A model generated the notes under the pieces. The model was given only the letters and a program-made list of their open reading frames with translations, made no database searches and was not told where the DNA came from. From assembly GCF_022879595.1 (NCBI RefSeq), contig NZ_CP084270.1:62001-126000 (forward strand): DNA of 64,000 nucleotides. The letters are read 5' to 3'. The position numbers and the translations under genes are program-made. This document shows, piece by piece, positions 9,948-60,738 of the stretch. Numbering within the stretch: position 1 is the stretch's first letter; each line of letters opens with the position of its first letter. The stretch comes from Caballeronia sp. Lep1P3 (GTDB taxonomy: Bacteria; Pseudomonadota; Gammaproteobacteria; Burkholderiales; Burkholderiaceae).

Positions 9948-12900
9948 TCATGCGGCGCCTTCGCAGCCCTTAGCGCCGGACCACGGGTAGTAGTGGATCG
10001 GCGCGAGATCGACGAGCAGCGCGCGGCGGATCTCATCGAGATCGACATCGGTATAGGCGCGCATGAGCAAATTCTCGATCAGCTCCTGCTGGCGCGGCTG
10101 TCCGAACGACAGTCGATAGAGCGAGACGATGCGCAGAATCTCCCGCAAGCGCGTGCATTCGACGCTGAATGGCGCAGCGGGTACGATCCGCTCGATGGTC
10201 GCCACGCCACGCGGCACGTGCCAGTAGGGCACGAGATCCGTGCGGCGCTGATCCTTCAGCGCCAGTTCGAACAATTCGCCCCAGAGATCCGCGCCGAAGG
10301 TCGTCCGGAGCGCAGGGCCATAGGCCTGCGCCACGCGCTGGCGCACGACAAGCGACTTGAAGCGGTTGATCCGTCCTTCGCGCTGTTCGAGATCGATAGG
10401 ATTGGGCGGCAGGCTCCAGTGCACGATCCGGCGGCAGTACCAGTGGAAGTCGAGTCCTTCCTGTCCGATCGAAGTCGAGTTCAGCATGAACGGCCAGAAC
10501 GGCGAATTGAAGGACGCGCGGGCGTTCGTGATCCGGTTGATGCTTTTCTCGTCTGTACCTCGCTGATTGCCGAACGGGACGGCGTAGTGACAATGGAAGG
10601 TCTTGTCGGACTGCTTCGGATCGGACAAGCGCGACGCCGGCAGCGTCTGCGCGGTCAGCGACACCGCGCCCGTGCCGATCGCGGTATGAAAGGCGTCAAT
10701 CGAACCGTCCAGCGTTCCGTCGGCCGACTTCAGCAAATGCAGATACTCGTCGAACACGGCTTGCAGATTGCCCATGGCGCCGTACTCGGCGACCGCCATC
10801 CACGGCTTTGCGCGCGGCAGAACGGCGCGCAGCACGCGCTGCGACTCCACGCGATTCATCTTGTCGATGAACCAGAGCGCGGCATCGGTCGCGCGCGCGA
10901 TCAGGAAATTCCGCCGCGCCACCTCCGGCGTTTCAGTAGTGCTGGCGCGCGAATGACGGATCACGTCGATGCCGTACTCGGCGTGACCGTTTTCGGGCGG
11001 CCAGATTGCCGTGAGCGTGCGCCGCATGCAGACGCCCGGACCGGCGATGGCGAGATCCGTGAGCCAGTCGAGCAGGTCGACCGGCGGTTCGCCCAGTCCC
11101 GCGGCGCCGTCGTTCAGCATTGCGCCGATGCGCTGCGCCTGCGCCGTGCGGGTGGCGGGCGCAGCGGACCATTTGGGGAACCGCGTGACCCATCGCCAGA
11201 CGTCTGCTTCGCTTTCACCGCAGACGAGATCGAGAAGGAACGGCGCGAGCGCATACCAGCGGCCCTTGAGATTGGCGCGCGTGGCGCCGGAACCGAAGCG
11301 CTCGCACATCCGATCGACGTCGCGCTGAAGGTCGACGCGCACGCGCTCACGAACGTCCTCGAGACTTGCATCCGGATACCGCATCGAAACCGACGCGAGA
11401 CGCGTCGAAGGATAGACGAGCCCCCAGACCGGCCCGACCGAATTGCCGTCGAGACGGAAGGTGCGCGAATGATCCTCGCGTTTTTCGAAGTAGCTCCGGC
11501 GTTTCCTGCTCTTCGACAACAGCCGCCGTTCACACTCGTACGACACGTAGCTCGAGATCGCACGAGGCGCCAGCACCAGCGATGAGAACAACAAGGTTTT
11601 GCTGAAGCTTTCCAGCCCTTTAAACGGTCCGTCTGCGGCGTAATTGGCGAGACTCGGCGGCACCCACAACAGTCGCTCTGCCCCTTCGGGTGCAGCTGCC
11701 CGCAACACCTGAGCGAACCGGCCGCCCGGCGCGTCGCGGGTCAGATCGAGACTGTAGTTCTCGAACTTCCTGTACGGAATCCACGCAGTCTCGGACTGTG
11801 CCAGCGCGGAGGCCACGCCCTTCTCCCCGCGGTACTGGCGTAGCGTCTCACGAAGCTGGTAGCCACTGAGAAACGACAGGCTCCACGGCGCCGCCTTGTG
11901 AAACTGCATGACATCGCTGCCCGCCTTTCCGTTTGACGCGTCCCTGAGGGCCTGTGCAAGCTGAGCGAGCGCGACGAAGCTCGCGATCTCCGCGATGGAG
12001 GTCGCGCCGTCGGCCGCATCCGCCGGCACCGTGCGGAAGATTTTCTCGATATCTGGTTCGATCGCCGCGCGCTCAGTGCGGCAGATGTACGGCCGCAGCG
12101 TGGTCTGCACGCGATCGCGCTCGACGGTGCGGAGCGAGTTCGGTGCGAGCGGGCTGTCGGGCAAGCGCAGCAGTTGTCCCAGCAGCGCCTCGCGGCCAGT
12201 CTTGTAGTTTGCGAGGACGGTGGCATCGCCGCTGCAAAGATATTTCAGCAGTTCGATGAGTTGCTGTTCGTGCGCTCTTCCTTCCTCCTCGTCGGCGAGA
12301 TGTGTGAGCGCCTTGAAGGGGGTGGCGGACAAGAGCAGCGTCGCGTAGTCGGAACCTTCGTGCAGCACGCGCCGCGCGATGACCTGCTCTTCCGAAACGG
12401 CGTCTTCGTCCGTTGCCTCGCCCGGACCAGGCGCGTCGATGTTCAGCAATGCGGAAAATCGCTGAAACTCATCGAGGATGAACAGATCCGCCTTGAGGTT
12501 GCGCGCGCATGCCTCGACGAACATCTGGCGGATGCCTCCGCGCACGCACGTCGTGAGATGCGTGCCGTCGGTGACCTGCCCGGCGTCCGTTTCGGAAAGC
12601 GTCCTCAGGAGGCTTCGCCAGGAGCGAACGGACAAACCCAGCGCTTTCGCCGCACGCAGCGCGCGTGCATCGAGTCTGGGCGGTTCGCCCAGACTCGTCA
12701 GGAATTCGCGGCGCGACGCGGATTCGAGCGGATCCTGACAGACCCTCTCGGCTTCTTCCCACGCGCCCTTGACGTTCTGCTGGAAGAATTTCCTGAGCGC
12801 ATCCGTCGGAAGCAGTCCGCCGCCGGACGTCGCCGCGCGCCAAATGATGTAGCGCTCCTTCGCGTTGCCGCCGCCCCGGCTCAGCACGAACGACGTCGCG

Positions 12901-13313
12901 GGGGTGAGCGAGCACGTTTCCATCAACGGCACGTGTTCGGGTGGCGGTTGTTTGAGACCGAGTTCGGCGAGCCGTCCGAATTTGAGCGAGCTCACCCACT
13001 GATCCGCCAGCGCGCCGCGGAATACCGCGAGCTTCTTGACGTTTTCGTGCGCCAGCGCCTGATTGGAGCAAATGTATTCGACTCGAAAAGGCCGCTCTAG
13101 CGGGCCCAGACTCAAGCGATTGCGCAACAGCGTGGCGACTACGCCACGTGCCACCAGCGTCTTGCCCAACCCGACCTCGTCGCCGACGAGCAGCCGTCCG
13201 CCCAGTCCGTCCACGCCGTCGAGCCGCGCACATGCCGCTTCGACCGTGGCGCGCTGGAAGTCGGTGAGGCCGCACAGCGCTTCGTCAATGGGTCCGATCG
13301 CTTCATGCATCAT
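9948..13313 (-). CDS. large SNF2-like/superfamily 2 helicase of a defence-type operon
   Basis: 1121 aa from the ATG at 13313, which overlaps the TGA of the upstream PLD gene as ATGATG. Superfamily-2 motifs appear in order: motif I GDEVGLGKT near residue 44, a DEFQ Walker B near 279, SATPF (motif III) near 328, then in the C-terminal half GLDFHWYC and QREGRINRF (motif VI) around 955-985. It should be an ATP-dependent DNA or RNA translocase in the cytoplasm. With the DUF6361-like and PLD genes it makes a three-gene cassette resembling the Azaca anti-phage system as I recall it. That identification is inference. The reading frame is intact. Confidence 0.85.
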   Translation of the reverse strand: MMHEAIGPIDEALCGLTDFQRATVEAACARLDGVDGLGGRLLVGDEVGLGKTLVARGVVATLLRNRLSLGPLERPFRVEYICSNQALAHENVKKLAVFRGALADQWVSSLKFGRLAELGLKQPPPEHVPLMETCSLTPATSFVLSRGGGNAKERYIIWRAATSGGGLLPTDALRKFFQQNVKGAWEEAERVCQDPLESASRREFLTSLGEPPRLDARALRAAKALGLSVRSWRSLLRTLSETDAGQVTDGTHLTTCVRGGIRQMFVEACARNLKADLFILDEFQRFSALLNIDAPGPGEATDEDAVSEEQVIARRVLHEGSDYATLLLSATPFKALTHLADEEEGRAHEQQLIELLKYLCSGDATVLANYKTGREALLGQLLRLPDSPLAPNSLRTVERDRVQTTLRPYICRTERAAIEPDIEKIFRTVPADAADGATSIAEIASFVALAQLAQALRDASNGKAGSDVMQFHKAAPWSLSFLSGYQLRETLRQYRGEKGVASALAQSETAWIPYRKFENYSLDLTRDAPGGRFAQVLRAAAPEGAERLLWVPPSLANYAADGPFKGLESFSKTLLFSSLVLAPRAISSYVSYECERRLLSKSRKRRSYFEKREDHSRTFRLDGNSVGPVWGLVYPSTRLASVSMRYPDASLEDVRERVRVDLQRDVDRMCERFGSGATRANLKGRWYALAPFLLDLVCGESEADVWRWVTRFPKWSAAPATRTAQAQRIGAMLNDGAAGLGEPPVDLLDWLTDLAIAGPGVCMRRTLTAIWPPENGHAEYGIDVIRHSRASTTETPEVARRNFLIARATDAALWFIDKMNRVESQRVLRAVLPRAKPWMAVAEYGAMGNLQAVFDEYLHLLKSADGTLDGSIDAFHTAIGTGAVSLTAQTLPASRLSDPKQSDKTFHCHYAVPFGNQRGTDEKSINRITNARASFNSPFWPFMLNSTSIGQEGLDFHWYCRRIVHWSLPPNPIDLEQREGRINRFKSLVVRQRVAQAYGPALRTTFGADLWGELFELALKDQRRTDLVPYWHVPRGVATIERIVPAAPFSVECTRLREILRIVSLYRLSFGQPRQQELIENLLMRAYTDVDLDEIRRALLVDLAPIHYYPWSGAKGCEGAA

Positions 13314-15139
13314 TGTTTGCTCCCGTGGTATCGAGCGAACCCGTCGAACAGGGTGTCGAGTCCTTCCGGAAGAGCGTCGAGCTCGTGGCGTATGCGCTCG
13401 AAAATCTCGATGGCGCGGCTCATGCGCCGCGGCGCGCGCGAGGCAGCGCGCAAGAGTTGCTCGTAGAGCGCGCCCCGGCCGTCGAGTCCGAAGATATCGA
13501 CCGACTTGCCGTCGCCGTCGGCGCGCGTCCAGTCGCCGCGTGATGGACCCGTATCCAGCACGAGTGCGAGATATCGCAACAGCTTTTCGCCGTTGCCGAT
13601 GACATCGCAGAAAATGGCCCGCTTGCGCGCTTCCAGCAAGTCGGCCGAGAACGCCGCCTGAATCACGAAGCGCTCGCACTGCGCGTCCGCCGCGCGCACT
13701 TCGACGGAGACGAACGCGCTCACGTCGGTGAGACTCACGTTGGACCATGAAACTGCCGGCGCAAGCACACGTTCATCGGCGCGGCACAGCATCCGCACGC
13801 TGATGTCGAAGTCCGGCTGCGGCTCGAACGGCGTCACTTCGAGGCGCATGTCGAAGTGCGCCGGTTCGGTCTCCTCCGCATGCAGCCGCCAGGCGGCCGT
13901 CCTCAGCGCGTCAACAATCTGGCGCATGCGCTGCTCGCGCTCCGCGGCGTCCGGCGCGGTTTCCTTGAACGTGTGCGGTTGAAACACGTTCGCCGCCGAC
14001 CACATATCGAGCAGCTTCGCAGGGCCGACCTTCTGATTGCGGCCGGTCAGGCGCACCATCAGTTCGCAGTTGCGCGGATACACGTTCGCACTCGGCCGGC
14101 CGAACGCGGCGTTCGTCATGTTGGCCGATCCCATGTGCCACGCTGCCATCCCTTGCTGCCGGACGACGATCAGTTTCGCGTGCAGGTTCTGCAACGCCGG
14201 CGTTTTTTCTTCGTTGGACTCTTCCCCATCGATGACGCGCTCCGACAACGACAACACCTTCCAGTCTTTGAGCCGCTCGGGCCCGATCTTGTCGAGCGTG
14301 TCGCCGCGGCTGATGAGCGTGCGCGAGCCGCTGGCGCGCACGCGGCATGCGAGCGCGTCGAGCATGCTGTGTTCGCCGGCATCGACGAACGGCGAGACGA
14401 CCAACAGGTCGTCGAGCTTCCCCTCGATGACTTCGTCGAGCGCGAACGGCATGGCCGCCGGCCAGTGCGCGTCGCCATGACGGCCAGGGAGGATGGCGAC
14501 TTCCGCATCGAATGAATCTGGAGCGGTCCACGCGACCGATTCGAGCCCTTCGCACATGCCTTCGATGAACGCGGCATGCGCCGGATCTCGCGAAAGCGAA
14601 CGGAGAAAGTCTACGAGCCGTTTGTCGCTGTTGGCCCGACGCCCGGCCGACTGTCCGTCTAACGACACGGCGACATCCCAGCTGCGGTCGAATGTCAGGT
14701 TGCGCGACAGCACCAGCAGCCGCCAGCGATCGGGCGCGTCCGCTTCGTCCGGCTCGAAGCGAAGTAGCCACATCTTGGGGTGAAACGATGCAAATGCACC
14801 CGCTGCCCCTTCGAGCGCGATGACGGGCGCGATGAGCGGCTCCAGCAGCGCGAACAACCGGTTGAACTTCTCGGGCACCTTGATGCTTCCGCTCTGGTGA
14901 AAGACCAGCAAGCGGTTCTGAAGCCGGTCGATAGCTTCGAGCAGCGCCAGGCGTTCGCCCGACAGTTCGACTTCGTCGTCTTCCTTGATCACCTGATCGA
15001 GCGTCAGGGCCAGCGACGCGGCTGCGAGCGTTTCAAGATCGAGCGAGTAAGTCGTGGTCAACGCGGAATGGAGTCGATAGCCGTCGGGCGCGCGCAGTTG
15101 GTCGCCATAGTCGAGGCGGTCGGTTTCGAGCTTCAGCAC
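13310..15139 (-). CDS. PLD-family nuclease-like protein of a defence-type operon
   Basis: I start it at the GTG at 15139, which has a GAAGGAG site and overlaps the end of the DUF6361-like gene by 7 bp, giving 609 aa. Two PLD half-sites are visible. The first is FHPKMWLLRF near residue 121 with LSRNLTFDRSWD. The second is HAKLIVV near 320 with GSANMTNAAFG about 20 residues later. These HxK and N/S residues form the usual phosphodiesterase site, so it is probably a DNA-cutting nuclease. The stop overlaps the helicase start, so translation is coupled. No membrane segments. Confidence 0.8.
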   Translation of the reverse strand: MLKLETDRLDYGDQLRAPDGYRLHSALTTTYSLDLETLAAASLALTLDQVIKEDDEVELSGERLALLEAIDRLQNRLLVFHQSGSIKVPEKFNRLFALLEPLIAPVIALEGAAGAFASFHPKMWLLRFEPDEADAPDRWRLLVLSRNLTFDRSWDVAVSLDGQSAGRRANSDKRLVDFLRSLSRDPAHAAFIEGMCEGLESVAWTAPDSFDAEVAILPGRHGDAHWPAAMPFALDEVIEGKLDDLLVVSPFVDAGEHSMLDALACRVRASGSRTLISRGDTLDKIGPERLKDWKVLSLSERVIDGEESNEEKTPALQNLHAKLIVVRQQGMAAWHMGSANMTNAAFGRPSANVYPRNCELMVRLTGRNQKVGPAKLLDMWSAANVFQPHTFKETAPDAAEREQRMRQIVDALRTAAWRLHAEETEPAHFDMRLEVTPFEPQPDFDISVRMLCRADERVLAPAVSWSNVSLTDVSAFVSVEVRAADAQCERFVIQAAFSADLLEARKRAIFCDVIGNGEKLLRYLALVLDTGPSRGDWTRADGDGKSVDIFGLDGRGALYEQLLRAASRAPRRMSRAIEIFERIRHELDALPEGLDTLFDGFARYHGSKQ

Positions 15140-16371
15140 GGCAGCTCCTTCGCGATGTCCGTCAACATGCGCCGCGCAGTCTGCCAACGATAATCGAGCG
15201 CGCTCATGCCGTACCAGCTGGCTTCATTGGGTTCACGCAGCAGCAACGAACGCTTCGGCTTGTTCTGGATGGCCTGATTGAAGACGAGTTCATCCAGAGC
15301 GGACTGATTCGGATCTGCGACGCTGTTGAGCGTGTTCCATCTATCCAGAAACTGGCAGGTAAGCGACTTCACGCGACTGCCGCTGGCGTCGTTGGCACTC
15401 ATCCATTGCTGCGGGGCATTATCGTGAAAAATGCGTGCGACGCGCGCTTCGGCCTGCCAGCTTGCGTATCGATCCGCGCATAGCTGCGCGAGCTTGCCAT
15501 TTTGGGTCTTCCCCTCGGCGATCAGGCGGTTGAAGATGATATGGGCGCCCTAGATGGCGAGGCTGAAGCGCTGTGCCCGCTCGACGTTCTCGCAGCATGC
15601 CGCGCTGAGCGCCGTCTGTTTCGCGGCCCAGTCGCTGAATGCGGCAAAACTCGCGTAGTCTTTTTTCAGCGCCGTCCTGGCCAGTCCGTGCGAGATCAGT
15701 TGCGCAGCAACCGTGTGTTCGAGACCGGGCGCATTCGTGAAGCGCTCGCGCAGGAATTTTGCCTCGGGCGCGGTGAGCTCGAGGAGCATGCCGTCCGGCC
15801 ATCCTCCAGGCGAGCCGGGCGGCCGGCGCATGACAGCCTCGAATCGATGATCATCGTCGTTGCTGCCTTCGTCGCTCGTCACGATTTCATGCCCGGCGGC
15901 ATCGCGCTGCCAGTGACGACAAAATTCCGCCAGCGACTGCCTGGTCCGCACGATGTCGAACACACGCAGTCCGTTCCAATAGGTCGTCGATGGACGCCTC
16001 GACACACCGCCCTGCTCCACGGCGGTGTGACCGATCACATCGGTCGGCGGCTCACCGATCTTTTCGTAATTGTCCTTGAGCAGGCTCGCAAGCTTGTTCT
16101 CCGCCTCACGCAGATACATGGCGAGCGGACGCGCGTTGCGCTTCGACGGCGACCATGCGGCTCAGTCGAGCATCAGCCGCGGAATCGCGAGAAAGTAGCG
16201 GGCGCGCGTCTGGATGGTGTTGAAGCCGGGAAACAGCAAATCGGCATAAGCGTCGCGAATCTGGCCTACGCCGAGTTCGTCGAGCGTGCCTTTTTCCTTC
16301 ATCATCGCGAGCACATCATGCACGCGCCGACGGTCCGACGCGGAAAAATCAATCCAGCCAGTACTGCTCAT
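15133..16371 (-). pseudogene. DUF6361-like gene with two in-frame stop codons
   Basis: From the ATG at 16371 (MSSTGWIDFSASDRRRVHDV) one frame runs 413 codons to the TGA at 15133, but it is broken by TGA at 16162-16164 and TAG at 15550-15552. The start, DELGVGQIRDAYADLLFPGF and TIQTRARYFLAIP stretches are hallmarks of DUF6361 proteins as I remember them. The restored length, about 412 aa, fits the family. Both stops could arise from single C-to-T changes (CGA to TGA, CAG to TAG). It heads the operon with the PLD and helicase genes. Readthrough or sequencing error are alternatives to true inactivation. Confidence 0.7.
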
Positions 16372-17087: not shown

Positions 17088-17390
17088 TCAAGCGAACCGC
17101 AGGGACATATGTACCTCGTCGTATGCCTCGTCGCCAACCATCAAAGAGTGGCGTTCCAACCCGAATTCCTGAAATCCTAGCGACGCATAGACGTTTATAG
17201 CGGCTGTACTTGTCGCATTGGCCGTTAGATTTACCTGTGTGATACCCGGCACGGATTTGGCGAAATCCAGGGCTTCTGCAATAAGCCTTCTGCCAATGCC
17301 CAAACCTCTCATGTCGGGCGCTACATAGTCTCACCTGCAAAATTCGATCTCGCTCGCGCGTGCTCCCGAGTGGTCGATCGGGGCGCAGTC
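17088..17390 (-). pseudogene. GNAT acetyltransferase remnant
   Basis: The C-terminal part is clear: APDMRGLGIGRRLIAEALDF is the acetyl-CoA-binding motif A (R/Q-x-x-G-x-G/A), followed by NVYASLGFQEFGLER, the end of the GNAT fold. Upstream the same frame reads ASEIEFCR and then a TGA where CGA would give Arg. Before that a frameshift at a CCCC run probably interrupts LRPIDHSGA. The N-terminal half is missing, cut off at the edge of the neighbouring IS5 element. Inactive as it stands. Confidence 0.65.
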
Positions 17391-35260: not shown

Positions 35261-36259
35261 TTTGAACTGCGCTCTTGCGACACCAGGCAGAGCGCGTGTT
35301 GCGTCAGTCAAGGCGCATCTCCAAATTACTGCGCCCACGGCTACAGCGCTGGCCGGAACGGTGCGATTTGCGTCATTGAGTGCAGCGTGTCGACGGTCGG
35401 TTGCTCTCGTAGGGAGGCGCGACGGCGGGTCAAAGGAAAACATGCCGCAGCACGCCGCGGCTTCTTACTCATGCGACGCTTTGACTAGAAGGCCGACCAG
35501 TCGCCATTAGCAGAAGCGATCACCGATGCGCTCAATCGGCGGCTTGGCCGGACGCGTCGCCGTTCGTGCTGGCGCGGGCGTCGGCGCACGCTTCGCCGCG
35601 ACCACGCTGTTGACTACCGGCGATGACGTGAACGTCTGACCGGTACGAAAGACGCCCACAGCTGCGGTCAGTTGCTTCGCTTGGTCTTCCATCGAGCCGG
35701 CCGCTGCCGCCGCTTCTTCAACCAGGGCGGCATTTTGCTGCGTGACCTCGTCCATCTGCGAGATGGCCTGATTCACCTGCTCGATGCCGCGAGTTTGCTC
35801 ACTCGAAGCGGACGCAATCTCGCCCATGATGTCGGTGACTCGTTGGATCGCGGTGCCCACCTTCTTCATCGTCTCTCCAGCTTGTGCAACGAGCTCCGTT
35901 CCCTCATTGACTCGGGTACCGGATGTTTCAATGAGGTCCTTGATTTCCTTCGCGGCGGTCGATGAACGCTGCGCGAGGCTGCGCACTTCGCTCGCGACGA
36001 CGGCGAAGCCACGACCTTGCTCGCCAGCGCGTGCAGCTTCCACGGCAGCGTTGAGTGCCAGGATGTTGGTCTGGAATGCGATGCCTTCGATGATCCCGAT
36101 GATTTCGGCGATCTTGCCCGAGCTCTGCTCGATCCCATCCATCGTTTGTATCACCTGACCGATGATGGCGCTGCCCTCGTTGGCGACGGCGTTTGCGTTG
36201 TCTGCCAGTCCGCTCGCTTGCTGAGCGTTTTCCGAATTCTGCTTAACGGTCGCGGTTAA

Positions 36260-37482
36260 GGAAACTCTGCGTAACCCTGTCATGGCATCGATTAGGAATG
36301 CTACTATTGACGTTACAGACATGGAGGCATTGTGATGACGCAACTTCATCTCGGTTTGAACCTTTCGACCAAGCGAACGCGTAAGCGGGAGTTTTTGGAC
36401 GAGATGAGACGAGTGGTGCCATGGTCAAGATTGATCGAGTTGATCGAGCCGCACTATCCAAAGGGCAAAGCCGGACGTCCTCCTTTTCCAATCGCGACGA
36501 TGTTGCATATTCACTTCCTGCAACAATGGTTTAGTCTGTCGGATCCAGCGATGGAAGAGGCCCTCTACGATGTGCCGCTGTATCGGGAGTTCGCGGGTCT
36601 CGACGGCGCGATGACCCGCCTCCCGGATGAAACGACCATCCTGCGGTTTAGGCACCTGCTCGAAGCACATGGGATCGCTGCGCAAATCCTGGCGGTGGTC
36701 AATGAGATATTGCGCGACAAGGGATTGATGCTCAAGGCGGGATCGGCCGTCGATGCCACGTTGGTCGCGGCGCCCAGCTCGACCAAGAACGGCTCGGGCA
36801 CACGCGATCCCGAGATGCAGTCGACTCAGAAAGGCCGCAACTGGTACTTCGGCATGAAAGCCCACGTGGGCGTGGACGCAGAATCAGGCTTGGTTCACAC
36901 GGTCATCGGCACGGCAGCTAACGTGCACGACATCAATGTGGCACATGCGTTGTTGCACGGGGAGGAGACGAGTGTTTATGCCGACGCCGCATACCAGGGC
37001 ATCGAAAAGCGTGAGCAAGCGGGTTCGGCCCGATGGCACGTTGCAATGCGGCCCAGCAAGCGCAGGAAACTGAATCTAGACGACCCTGTCGACGCGATAT
37101 ACGACAAGATTGAAAGGCTGAAGGCTGGTATTCGGGCGAAGGTTGAGCATCCTTTCCGAATACTCAAACGACAATTTGGCTACACGAAGACGCGATACCG
37201 GGGGCTGGCGAAGAATACCGCTCAAATCACTACGTTGTTTGCGTTGGGCAATCTATGGATGATGCGCAACGCGCTACGCCACTCGTAGAGAGGCCGCCAG
37301 ATGAACGTGGCCTTCATGTCCTTGCTAAAAGTCACAACCTCTTAACCGCATCGACGTGGTGACCTAATTCAGCAATCGACAGGCTTGCGCGAGGGAAAGT
37401 GGAGCTCCAACGCATACTGTTTACAACGAGTCTTCGTCCACGCCTGTCGCATGCGCCTCGAAACGCATTGTGCAGACGCTCC
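36260..37482 (+). mobile_element. IS5-family element J (1223 bp)
   Basis: The ends GGAAACTCTGCGTAACC and, reverse-complemented, GGAGCGTCTGCACAATGC are imperfect inverted repeats. TTAA is duplicated at 36256-36259 and 37483-37486, fitting the YTAR target rule. Inserted in the chemotaxis receptor gene. Confidence 0.93.
36332..37288 (+). CDS. IS5-family transposase (element J)
   Basis: 318 aa. A GTG at 36332 and an ATG at 36335 both follow a GGAGG site. Typical IS5-group protein: [20 protein letters not shown] head, DDE residues in [30 protein letters not shown] and [15 protein letters not shown]. Intact. Confidence 0.95.
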
Positions 37483-38401
37483 TTAACTCTTCCATGCTCG
37501 CGGCCGTTTCCTCCAGCGAGGCGGCCTGCTCTTCGGTGCGAGACGACAAGTCAGTATTGCCAGCGGCGATTTGCTTGCTCGCGCTCGCAATGGCTTCGCT
37601 GCTACTTCGAACAGTAAGGACGGTTGCGGCAAGCTTGTCTTTCATGGAAGCCACCCCGGAGAGCAGCTGGCCCATTTCATCATGCGTCTTCACGGCGACA
37701 ACGCGCGTCAGATCGCCTGCAGAAATGTGTTCGAAGTGCTCAAGCGCTTCTGCGATCGGGGTCATGATCGCGCGGCGCAGCAGGAACCAGCCAGCGAATG
37801 CAGCAATCAAACCAGCGGCAATAGCGGCAATCGCTACTACCGCAGCCGTACGACTAGCGCCCGCGTTTTCAATGCGTTGATGATCTGCCGACGTCTGCTG
37901 ATAGTCGCGCAACGCTTTTGAGGCATCCGTCATTTCCGCGTAAGCCTTAGGCAGTGCAACCATCGCCACCTGACGGATCTCGCTCTCGTTGGCGCGATCC
38001 AGTGCAGCACCGAATGCAAGCACCGCTTCGCGTAGCGCCTTGCGCTTTACTGCGAGATCGCCAGCCATGCCCGACTCTTGCGCATCTTGCGGCAACGACA
38101 TGTATTCTGCGAACGCCTTGTCTGATCCGTCGAGATAGCCTAGCACGCGCTCGCGCTGCCGTGCGGCGTCGGGTGAGTTTGGCTCCATGGCAACGTGATC
38201 GAGGACAAGCCTTGCACGTGCGAGACGAATTTCAGCGCTAGCCAGTGCTGCAGTCGACGGCAAGAGGTCCGTGCTCATTGCATCGGCCGAAGAACGGATC
38301 TTTTGCATGCCTAACAGGCCTACCGCGCCTACCAGTAGCAGCATAAAAGCAAGGAACGACATCGTAAGCGCGAGGCGCATACGGATTGTGAGAGTCTTCA
38401 T

Positions 38402-39184
38402 TTCTGTGATTTTCCAGCGCCACCCATAAAAGGCGATGCGACTGCGCCCACGCACCTGCCTGCCGCTCACCAATTGAAAGCGACCTTTGTATATCGACGC
38501 CGATTCGATATTCTGCAATCAGAATTTGTACAGTCGGATGCGATTGGAAGCAGTAGAAAATACCTCTCCAAACTGATTCATCGGACTTGCCGGTGAAGTC
38601 TCCCGCAGACTGAACGCTGCAGCTGAATGCGCGAATTGCAACGGCGAAGAAGCGATCCGGCTCGACCATCTCGAACAGGTGAGCAGCATTGCCGTCTAAT
38701 GACCTGCGTCGGTGGCCGGTTGCGCCCCGCCCGTTGTCCGAAGAGGCGTTCGGAAGCTGGCTGGGACATGTCGCCAGTCGCTACTAGATAAGTGTCGCGC
38801 AGATATAGGATTTCACTCAGCTGGGCACATTCCCCGCCCTTCGCAACATCGAATGGATCGTGTTTCCTCCAATATCCGAAGGTACGCTTGCCACGCAATC
38901 GGCAGTCACCCGTGAATCCTGACCGGCTTGCGCGGATCCAAACCCCGTCCGGCTGGGGAGCACGGGCAACACTCGAGCAATTTCCGGTAGCAATCGCACG
39001 GCGCGTACGTAACATGGATCGGTTGCTTGTGCTGGTGAGCAAATACCGGCACAAACTCAAAAGCGGCCCATCAAGGTCGATCATAGAATTAGTGCACCCC
39101 CAAATAGCAAAATTAGCGTACATCAACATCAACTTAAACCAACCAGCCTCCACGCCTCCACGATTCCCCGGGCGCTTCACTACG
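38402..39184. other. upstream region of the chemotaxis receptor; no gene recognised
   Basis: Nearly 800 bp in which two overlapping leftward frames (38238-38669, 38578-39180) lack ribosome-binding sites and protein-like content. It ends where the istA remnant begins. Confidence 0.45.
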
Positions 39185-59421: not shown

Positions 59422-60348
59422 CTGCAAATCTGTCCGTCGGAGCGGGTCAATCTCAGACATCACCTGTTCTTGCAGCGACGTGTAGGTCGCCTCAAGCGCG
59501 GCGAGCTTGCCCTTGCCATACGCCCGCCTGATGGCGGGCATCGCCCTGCTGTTGCTCGCGCTTCGACGGTGCGCCGATGCTCAGCGTCGCGCTGTTCCGC
59601 GCGCTTGGCCGCCCCGGCCACTTCTTTCTGCGCCTTGGCGGCGGCCCTGCGTTCGTGATCGATCTCTAGCAGCGCCCGCTTTTCGGTCGCACGCACGCGC
59701 TCTTCGGCACGCTGCGCCGTCTCCCGGAGTTTTTCCAGATCACGCGAGAACGTGTCGCGTACTTTCTCCAGTTCGCGTTCGCGCGCGAGCGCGTCCTCGT
59801 TCAGGCGCTTGGTTTCGGCCTCCACCGCTTTGCGGCGGGCGACTTCCACCGCCTGCTGCCGCTCCAGTTCCCGAATTTCGACCTGCGCCGCGAGCAGTGC
59901 GGCAGTGCGCTGTTCGAGTGCGGTCTCGGTCCGCCCGAGCTCCTCGCGCGCGGCGACGACCTTCTGCTCGGCTTCGGCGTGAGCTGCCTCGACCTCATCG
60001 CGAAGCAGCGTCAGCTCGGCGTGCGCGGAGGCCGCCGCGCGGGTCCAGAGCGCCCCGATCAGTTCGCCGGCGGCCTCGCTCAGGTCCGTCGGCAGGTCCG
60101 GATGCTCGATGCGCACCCGGCTTTTCTCGCGCAACTCCGCCCAGAACTCGCTCAGCACCGAGGCCGGCGTGCTCATCGTGCCGCGTCGGACCAGGTTGTA
60201 GAGCCGATTGGCAGTCGGGGCGACCCCGAAGCGGAAGAACAGCAGCGCGCACACCTCGCGGTAGAGCTCGCGGGTCTTCGGAAATTCCGCTTTGAGTCGG
60301 TCGATGTCGGCCGCCAGACGGGCGTCATCAGAGAGAAGGTCGGACATT

Positions 60349-60738
60349 GAGGGGCTGAGTGCCCTGCCCTCGCCCACCGAGGACGCGCCGCTTGTTTTGC
60401 CGATCGGCGCCAGCGCACCGAATCGACCCAGCGAGACCTGTGCGCCGCTGACGCGCGCGGGCTTGCACGCGATCGTCAAGTCGGTATTCGCAGGCGCCGC
60501 AACACGACTGCGTGATCGCGATGAGCAGTCTGAAGCGCGCGCCGACCTGTTGGATAAAGCCTCTGCGCATTGGCTGCGGCATAGCGCGGGTTCTCACATG
60601 GCCGACCGAAAGGTGGATCTGCGCATGGTCCGCGACAACCTCGGCCATGCCTCCTTGACTACCACCAGCATCTACCTGCATGTTGACGACGATCGGCGTC
60701 ACCAGGAGACCGAGGACAAGCACCGAGTCGACTGGTAG
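60349..60738 (+). pseudogene. C-terminal half of a tyrosine recombinase
   Basis: The frame carries LTRAGLHAIVKSVFAGAA, then SAHWLRHSAGSHMADR (H-x-x-R), LRMVRDNLGHASLTTTSIYL with the conserved His and nucleophile Tyr, and ends EDKHRVDW. The core-binding domain and first catalytic Arg are missing: the fragment starts at the kfrA-like ATG on the other strand, so two genes have been fused at a deletion point. Integrase/XerC family. Confidence 0.75.

Follow-up and report, generated by a model that had tools for sequence, protein, structure and literature searches.

The DNA analysed here, referred to as the window, is a 64,000-nucleotide stretch of a Caballeronia genome, and the subject of this report is a zacABC locus located on its minus strand at positions 9948-16371. 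We read this locus as a degraded Azaca anti-phage operon residing on a repeat-rich, plasmid-like contig of 202 kb. In intact relatives such an operon would supply a ZacC motor, a ZacB phosphodiesterase and a ZacA adaptor, and the system in the window is probably inactive or much weakened; taken as a whole, this reading was assigned a probability of about 0.62. What can be read directly from the nucleotide sequence is the identity of the three families, their conserved order, the intact motifs of the ZacC motor and the ZacB phosphodiesterase, and two stop codons inside zacA.

Organization of the zacABC operon

The genes follow each other in the order zacA, zacB, zacC as three consecutive coding frames, all on the minus strand. 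The frame of zacA, a DUF6361 gene (15133-16371), carries two in-frame stops. The frames of zacB (13310-15139; a PLD-superfamily protein of 609 amino acids (aa)) and zacC (9948-13313; a superfamily 2 (SF2) helicase-like ATPase of 1121 aa) are uninterrupted. The GTG start of zacB overlaps the zacA stop in the junction GTGCTGA, and the zacC ATG at 13313 overlaps the zacB stop in the junction ATGATG. A previous sequence-only reading of this DNA had described three same-strand genes joined in this manner and likened them to Azaca. The junctions read as it claimed and the frames are indeed consecutive on one strand, but the first gene does not form an open reading frame (ORF), being interrupted by a TGA and a TAG.

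The likeness to Azaca was confirmed by profile searches. In PADLOC the three genes had ZacA, ZacB and ZacC as their best families, and the Azaca label is therefore correct as a statement of homology. ZacB matched at 4.3e-151 over residues 4-607 and ZacC at 3.7e-253 over residues 11-1107. The three zacA pieces, searched separately, gave 1.9e-33, 7.7e-31 and 3.5e-20 and covered positions 3-69, 75-252 and 255-394 of the 396 positions in the ZacA model; Pfam DUF6361 matched piece 1 (5.6e-18) and gave no match to pieces 2 and 3. Judged by these values, the family matches of all three genes are far beyond chance, and no search placed a protein in an unrelated family. Homologues of ZacA, of ZacB with two PLD half-sites and of ZacC are thus all present in A-B-C order on one strand. 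A complete system would also have three uninterrupted genes, and in view of the zacA stops the locus was filed as degraded Azaca. It is probably a degraded new member of this known family and not a new kind of system.

Interruptions in zacA

Translation divided zacA into pieces at 16371-16165, 16161-15553 and 15549-15136, separated by a TGA at codon 70 (16162-16164) and a TAG at codon 274 (15550-15552). A whole-genome family search likewise counted one TGA and one TAG within the ZacA match. An uninterrupted relative of 412 aa (P0135) shares 98.6%, 96.1% and 97.8% identity with the three pieces, which indicates that the breaks are recent and that intact close copies exist.

In the window copy ZacA would terminate after 69 residues, and ribosomes translating it would stop short of the zacB start, which lies across the regular stop of zacA; zacB and zacC would probably be expressed at a lower level too. 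It is because of the short ZacA and the missed zacB start that the system is considered probably inactive or much weakened, and since zacA is broken, protection cannot be assumed for this copy. Substitutions were counted by comparison with a sister and an outgroup. In the zacA pieces, with the stops excluded, six changes fell on the window side and two on the sister side (one versus none at columns conserved at 70% or more). The corresponding counts for ZacB were 15 versus 9 (four versus one at such columns). The direction of these counts fits relaxed constraint, with numbers too small for proof.

Half-sites and fold of ZacB

Alignment located two half-sites in ZacB. The first consists of H120, K122, N147, D151 and D155 (14675-14782, minus strand) and the second of H320, K322, a GSAN containing N340, and E359 (14063-14182, minus strand). 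Each numbered residue was identical in all 79 aligned relatives, and the two HxK half-sites that had been noticed earlier in the PLD protein correspond to H120/K122 and H320/K322. The AlphaFold2 model of ZacB showed a two-lobed PLD fold, for which the top Foldseek match, and the sole PDB match at E of 0.001 or below, was the NgoAVII R-protein. In intact relatives ZacB would act as a PLD-superfamily phosphodiesterase, with one active site assembled from the two half-sites of the same chain.

Some features of the model resemble Tdp1, an enzyme that carries HKN motifs according to PMC6895789. The fold is two-lobed in both, Tdp1 gave the best Z (15.6) for the ZacB model, and ZacB from the window has HxK...N in both halves without an Asp five residues past the Lys. 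A two-lobed PLD fold with HKN motifs is thus common to the two. The proteins differ in that identity is just 13-14% and ZacB is longer by about 200 residues; the Tyr-DNA_phospho model (PF06087) remained below its cutoff (0.059; 12.7 bits versus 22). Several other PLD enzymes scored slightly below Tdp1 in the fold comparison.

Motor motifs of ZacC

The earlier claim of a 1121-aa helicase was upheld, with its start at the ATG at 13313, as were its SF2 motifs for those looked for, namely I, II, III, V and VI. In an alignment with 71 relatives, motif I (Walker A, GDEVGLGKT; 13158-13184), motif II (Walker B, ILDEFQ; 12462-12479), motif III (SATPF; 12315-12329) and motifs V and VI (GQEGLDFH to QREGRINR; 10362-10466), all on the minus strand, were conserved. 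ZacC showed zero departures at columns conserved at 95% or more among these relatives. Pfam Helicase_C matched residues 944-986 at 2.8e-4 and 21.6 bits, slightly under its cutoff of 23.5.

Distribution of Azaca loci

A scan of 84,980 species genomes with an alignment of ZacB yielded 309 confirmed loci. Examination covered the best 80; being picked by ZacB similarity, they are uninformative on loci without ZacB. The 80 loci come from several phyla and keep the three-gene order, in agreement with the operon proposed from sequence. In all 80, ZacA immediately preceded a ZacB of the same strand, and ZacC followed ZacB in 78, the two exceptions (L055, L061) reaching contig ends. ZacA was uninterrupted and at least 380 aa long in 78/80; one of the others is cut by a contig end (L086) and in the other the 5′ end is interrupted in the frame read (L083). 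Azaca operons with a single broken gene also occur outside the window, since the zacC of L089 and that of L092 (351 and 481 aa) were short or split despite remaining contig. When 300 genomes of the order were searched, ZacA and ZacB turned up in the same two. The suggestion that a PLD gene beside a helicase without DUF1998 is uncommon did not hold in view of these numbers, and CglI, NgoAVII and SauUSI, as described in PMC7913695, are further PLD-plus-SF2 enzymes.

No flanking family was common to more than 9 of the 80 loci when ORFs of 150 aa or more were considered in flanks of up to 7 kb. Azaca therefore seems to consist of three genes, with no methylase partner that is widely shared. Labels for the flanking families were assigned by eye from the first residues and not by database search. 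Under such labels an HsdR-like family was seen in nine loci, a RecB/UvrD-like family (labelled from its longest member) adjoined the operon in six, and a RecC-like family occurred in five, four of them shared with the RecB/UvrD-like set; the loci named for such flanks are L036, L039, L048, L049, L056 and L078.

The nearest ZacB, 95% identical, is from C. novacaledonica. In a search of 101 genomes of relatives the ZacB model matched at E of 0.001 or below in 50. Matches were full-length in only three of these, all of the same genus (the window genome, G005 and G010), and the remainder were mostly limited to the PLD part. DNA comparison found some match in 22 of 58 genomes of the genus. It extended at length only in the window genome and G005 (68-74% identity), was in six pieces in G010 and consisted of short stretches in the rest. 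A full-length ZacB relative with 27% identity was also present in a phage record from human fecal samples (MT835621.1, 14270-16084).

Replicon and neighbouring genes

The genome is 6.18 Mb in six contigs, and the window lies on contig C6 (202,006 bases), 38% of which consists of repeats of at least 400 bp with a second copy on C6. Transposases of the Pfam types IS66, DDE_Tnp_1, IstB/IS21, rve and IS240 are frequent among the scanned window ORFs. A protein with a KfrA_N plasmid DNA-binding domain (59460-60479, minus strand; 8.3e-17) suggests that C6 is a plasmid-type replicon. Upstream of zacA lies a minus-strand remnant of a GNAT acetyltransferase (17090-17330); the Pfam match spans just the C-terminal half of the domain and is preceded by an in-frame stop. 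Further away on the minus strand a chemoreceptor is apparently split in two ORFs, one with the MCP signalling domain only (35507-36349) and one with the TarH and HAMP domains (37421-38518).

Discussion

The description of Azaca goes back to Millman et al. (2022), as cited in PMC10952713 and PMC12926258, and the latter, a 2026 review, places it among systems of unknown mechanism. No mechanistic Azaca paper was among the matches listed in the literature searched, which excluded most subscription journals. The window operon shares with Azaca all three protein families, their order on one strand and the overlapping junctions, and differs in the two zacA stops. In intact relatives, ZacC would be an ATP-driven DNA translocase or sensor that passes invading DNA to ZacB. 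The all-helical ZacA would serve as adaptor or regulator, either linking these two or sensing the target. Precedents for PLD and SF2 modules acting together are CglI and SauUSI, for which ATP-driven movement along DNA before cutting is proposed in PMC5737866 and PMC7913695. In CglI and NgoAVII the nuclease and the ATPase are on separate subunits; in SauUSI, a type IV enzyme with ATP-dependent translocation (PMC7913695), they are combined in one.

Several points weigh against this reading of the operon. ZacB and ZacC are uninterrupted and little changed, and small change counts alone do not demonstrate loss of function. Sequencing or assembly error may be the source of the zacA stops. Pfam PLDc_2 gave ZacB 14.9 bits, under its cutoff of 27, and the fold comparison barely covered its C-terminal part, from about residue 400 onwards. 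Whatever goes further than family, fold and motif is inference, including the coupling of ZacC with ZacB and the role of ZacA.

If the stops are errors, or if the ZacA pieces or internal restarts yield enough product, the operon would still be functional. We consider this unlikely, at perhaps one chance in five. It is favoured by the catalytic motifs of the intact zacB and zacC, by an internal ORF of 189 aa starting with ATG (15550-16119), and by the 96-99% identity of the zacA pieces to their uninterrupted relative, by which the breaks, if real, are recent. However, chance error becomes less likely when the same gene holds two distinct stops, one TGA and one TAG; ZacA is of full size in nearly all examined loci, and several neighbouring genes (the GNAT remnant, the chemoreceptor halves) also appear broken. 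Less probable still is that ZacA is dispensable and that ZacB needs only ZacC to make up an ATP-dependent PLD nuclease of two parts, like CglI or NgoAVII, with which the locus still restricts DNA. The two-subunit PLD and SF2 architecture of those enzymes (PMC5737866 and PMC7913695) and the Foldseek match to the NgoAVII R-protein are consistent with this, as is the fact that parts of such sets can be dispensable: DrmC, the PLD protein of DISARM, is reported to be so in PMC9142583.

DISARM shares with the window operon a helicase and a PLD-domain protein, and models of PDC-M27C, DrmD, DrmA, DpdE and BrxH do match ZacC in the region of its C-terminal helicase motifs. These matches are 8.5e-17 or weaker with best stretches of some 35-60 residues, in contrast to 3.7e-253 over the whole of ZacC. 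DISARM places DUF1998 (DrmB) beside the helicase DrmA, whereas the Pfam and PADLOC searches of the three genes listed no match to DUF1998/DrmB; DISARM is also typically accompanied by a methyltransferase (PMC9142583). That the operon is of DISARM type, or another helicase-centred system, is very improbable, and was judged already refuted by the full-length Azaca family matches.

The Tdp1-like, single-chain HKN anatomy predicted for ZacB might be new to specialists. An HKN-type site is known from BfiI as well, so the pattern does not single out Tdp1. It is a speculative idea that ZacB works as an HKN phosphodiesterase akin to Tdp1, in a single chain, and that Azaca therefore acts on DNA ends or protein-DNA linkages of the invader, delivered by the ZacC motor, and not as a sequence-specific endonuclease. 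The candidate linkages, named with equal reserve, would be terminal proteins, relaxase or topoisomerase adducts and recombination ends. Were this true, the near-identical natural zacA copies, one uninterrupted and one twice stopped, would allow the contribution of ZacA to be compared.

For Azaca in general, the analysis offers a testable anatomy: a three-gene unit, with no widely shared fourth gene seen, in which an all-helical ZacA is combined with an SF2 motor and an HKN phosphodiesterase of two half-sites. What the copy in the window mainly illustrates is Azaca decay on a repeat-rich replicon. Such decay matters for counts of defence systems, because ZacB and ZacC can still be counted though zacA is broken.
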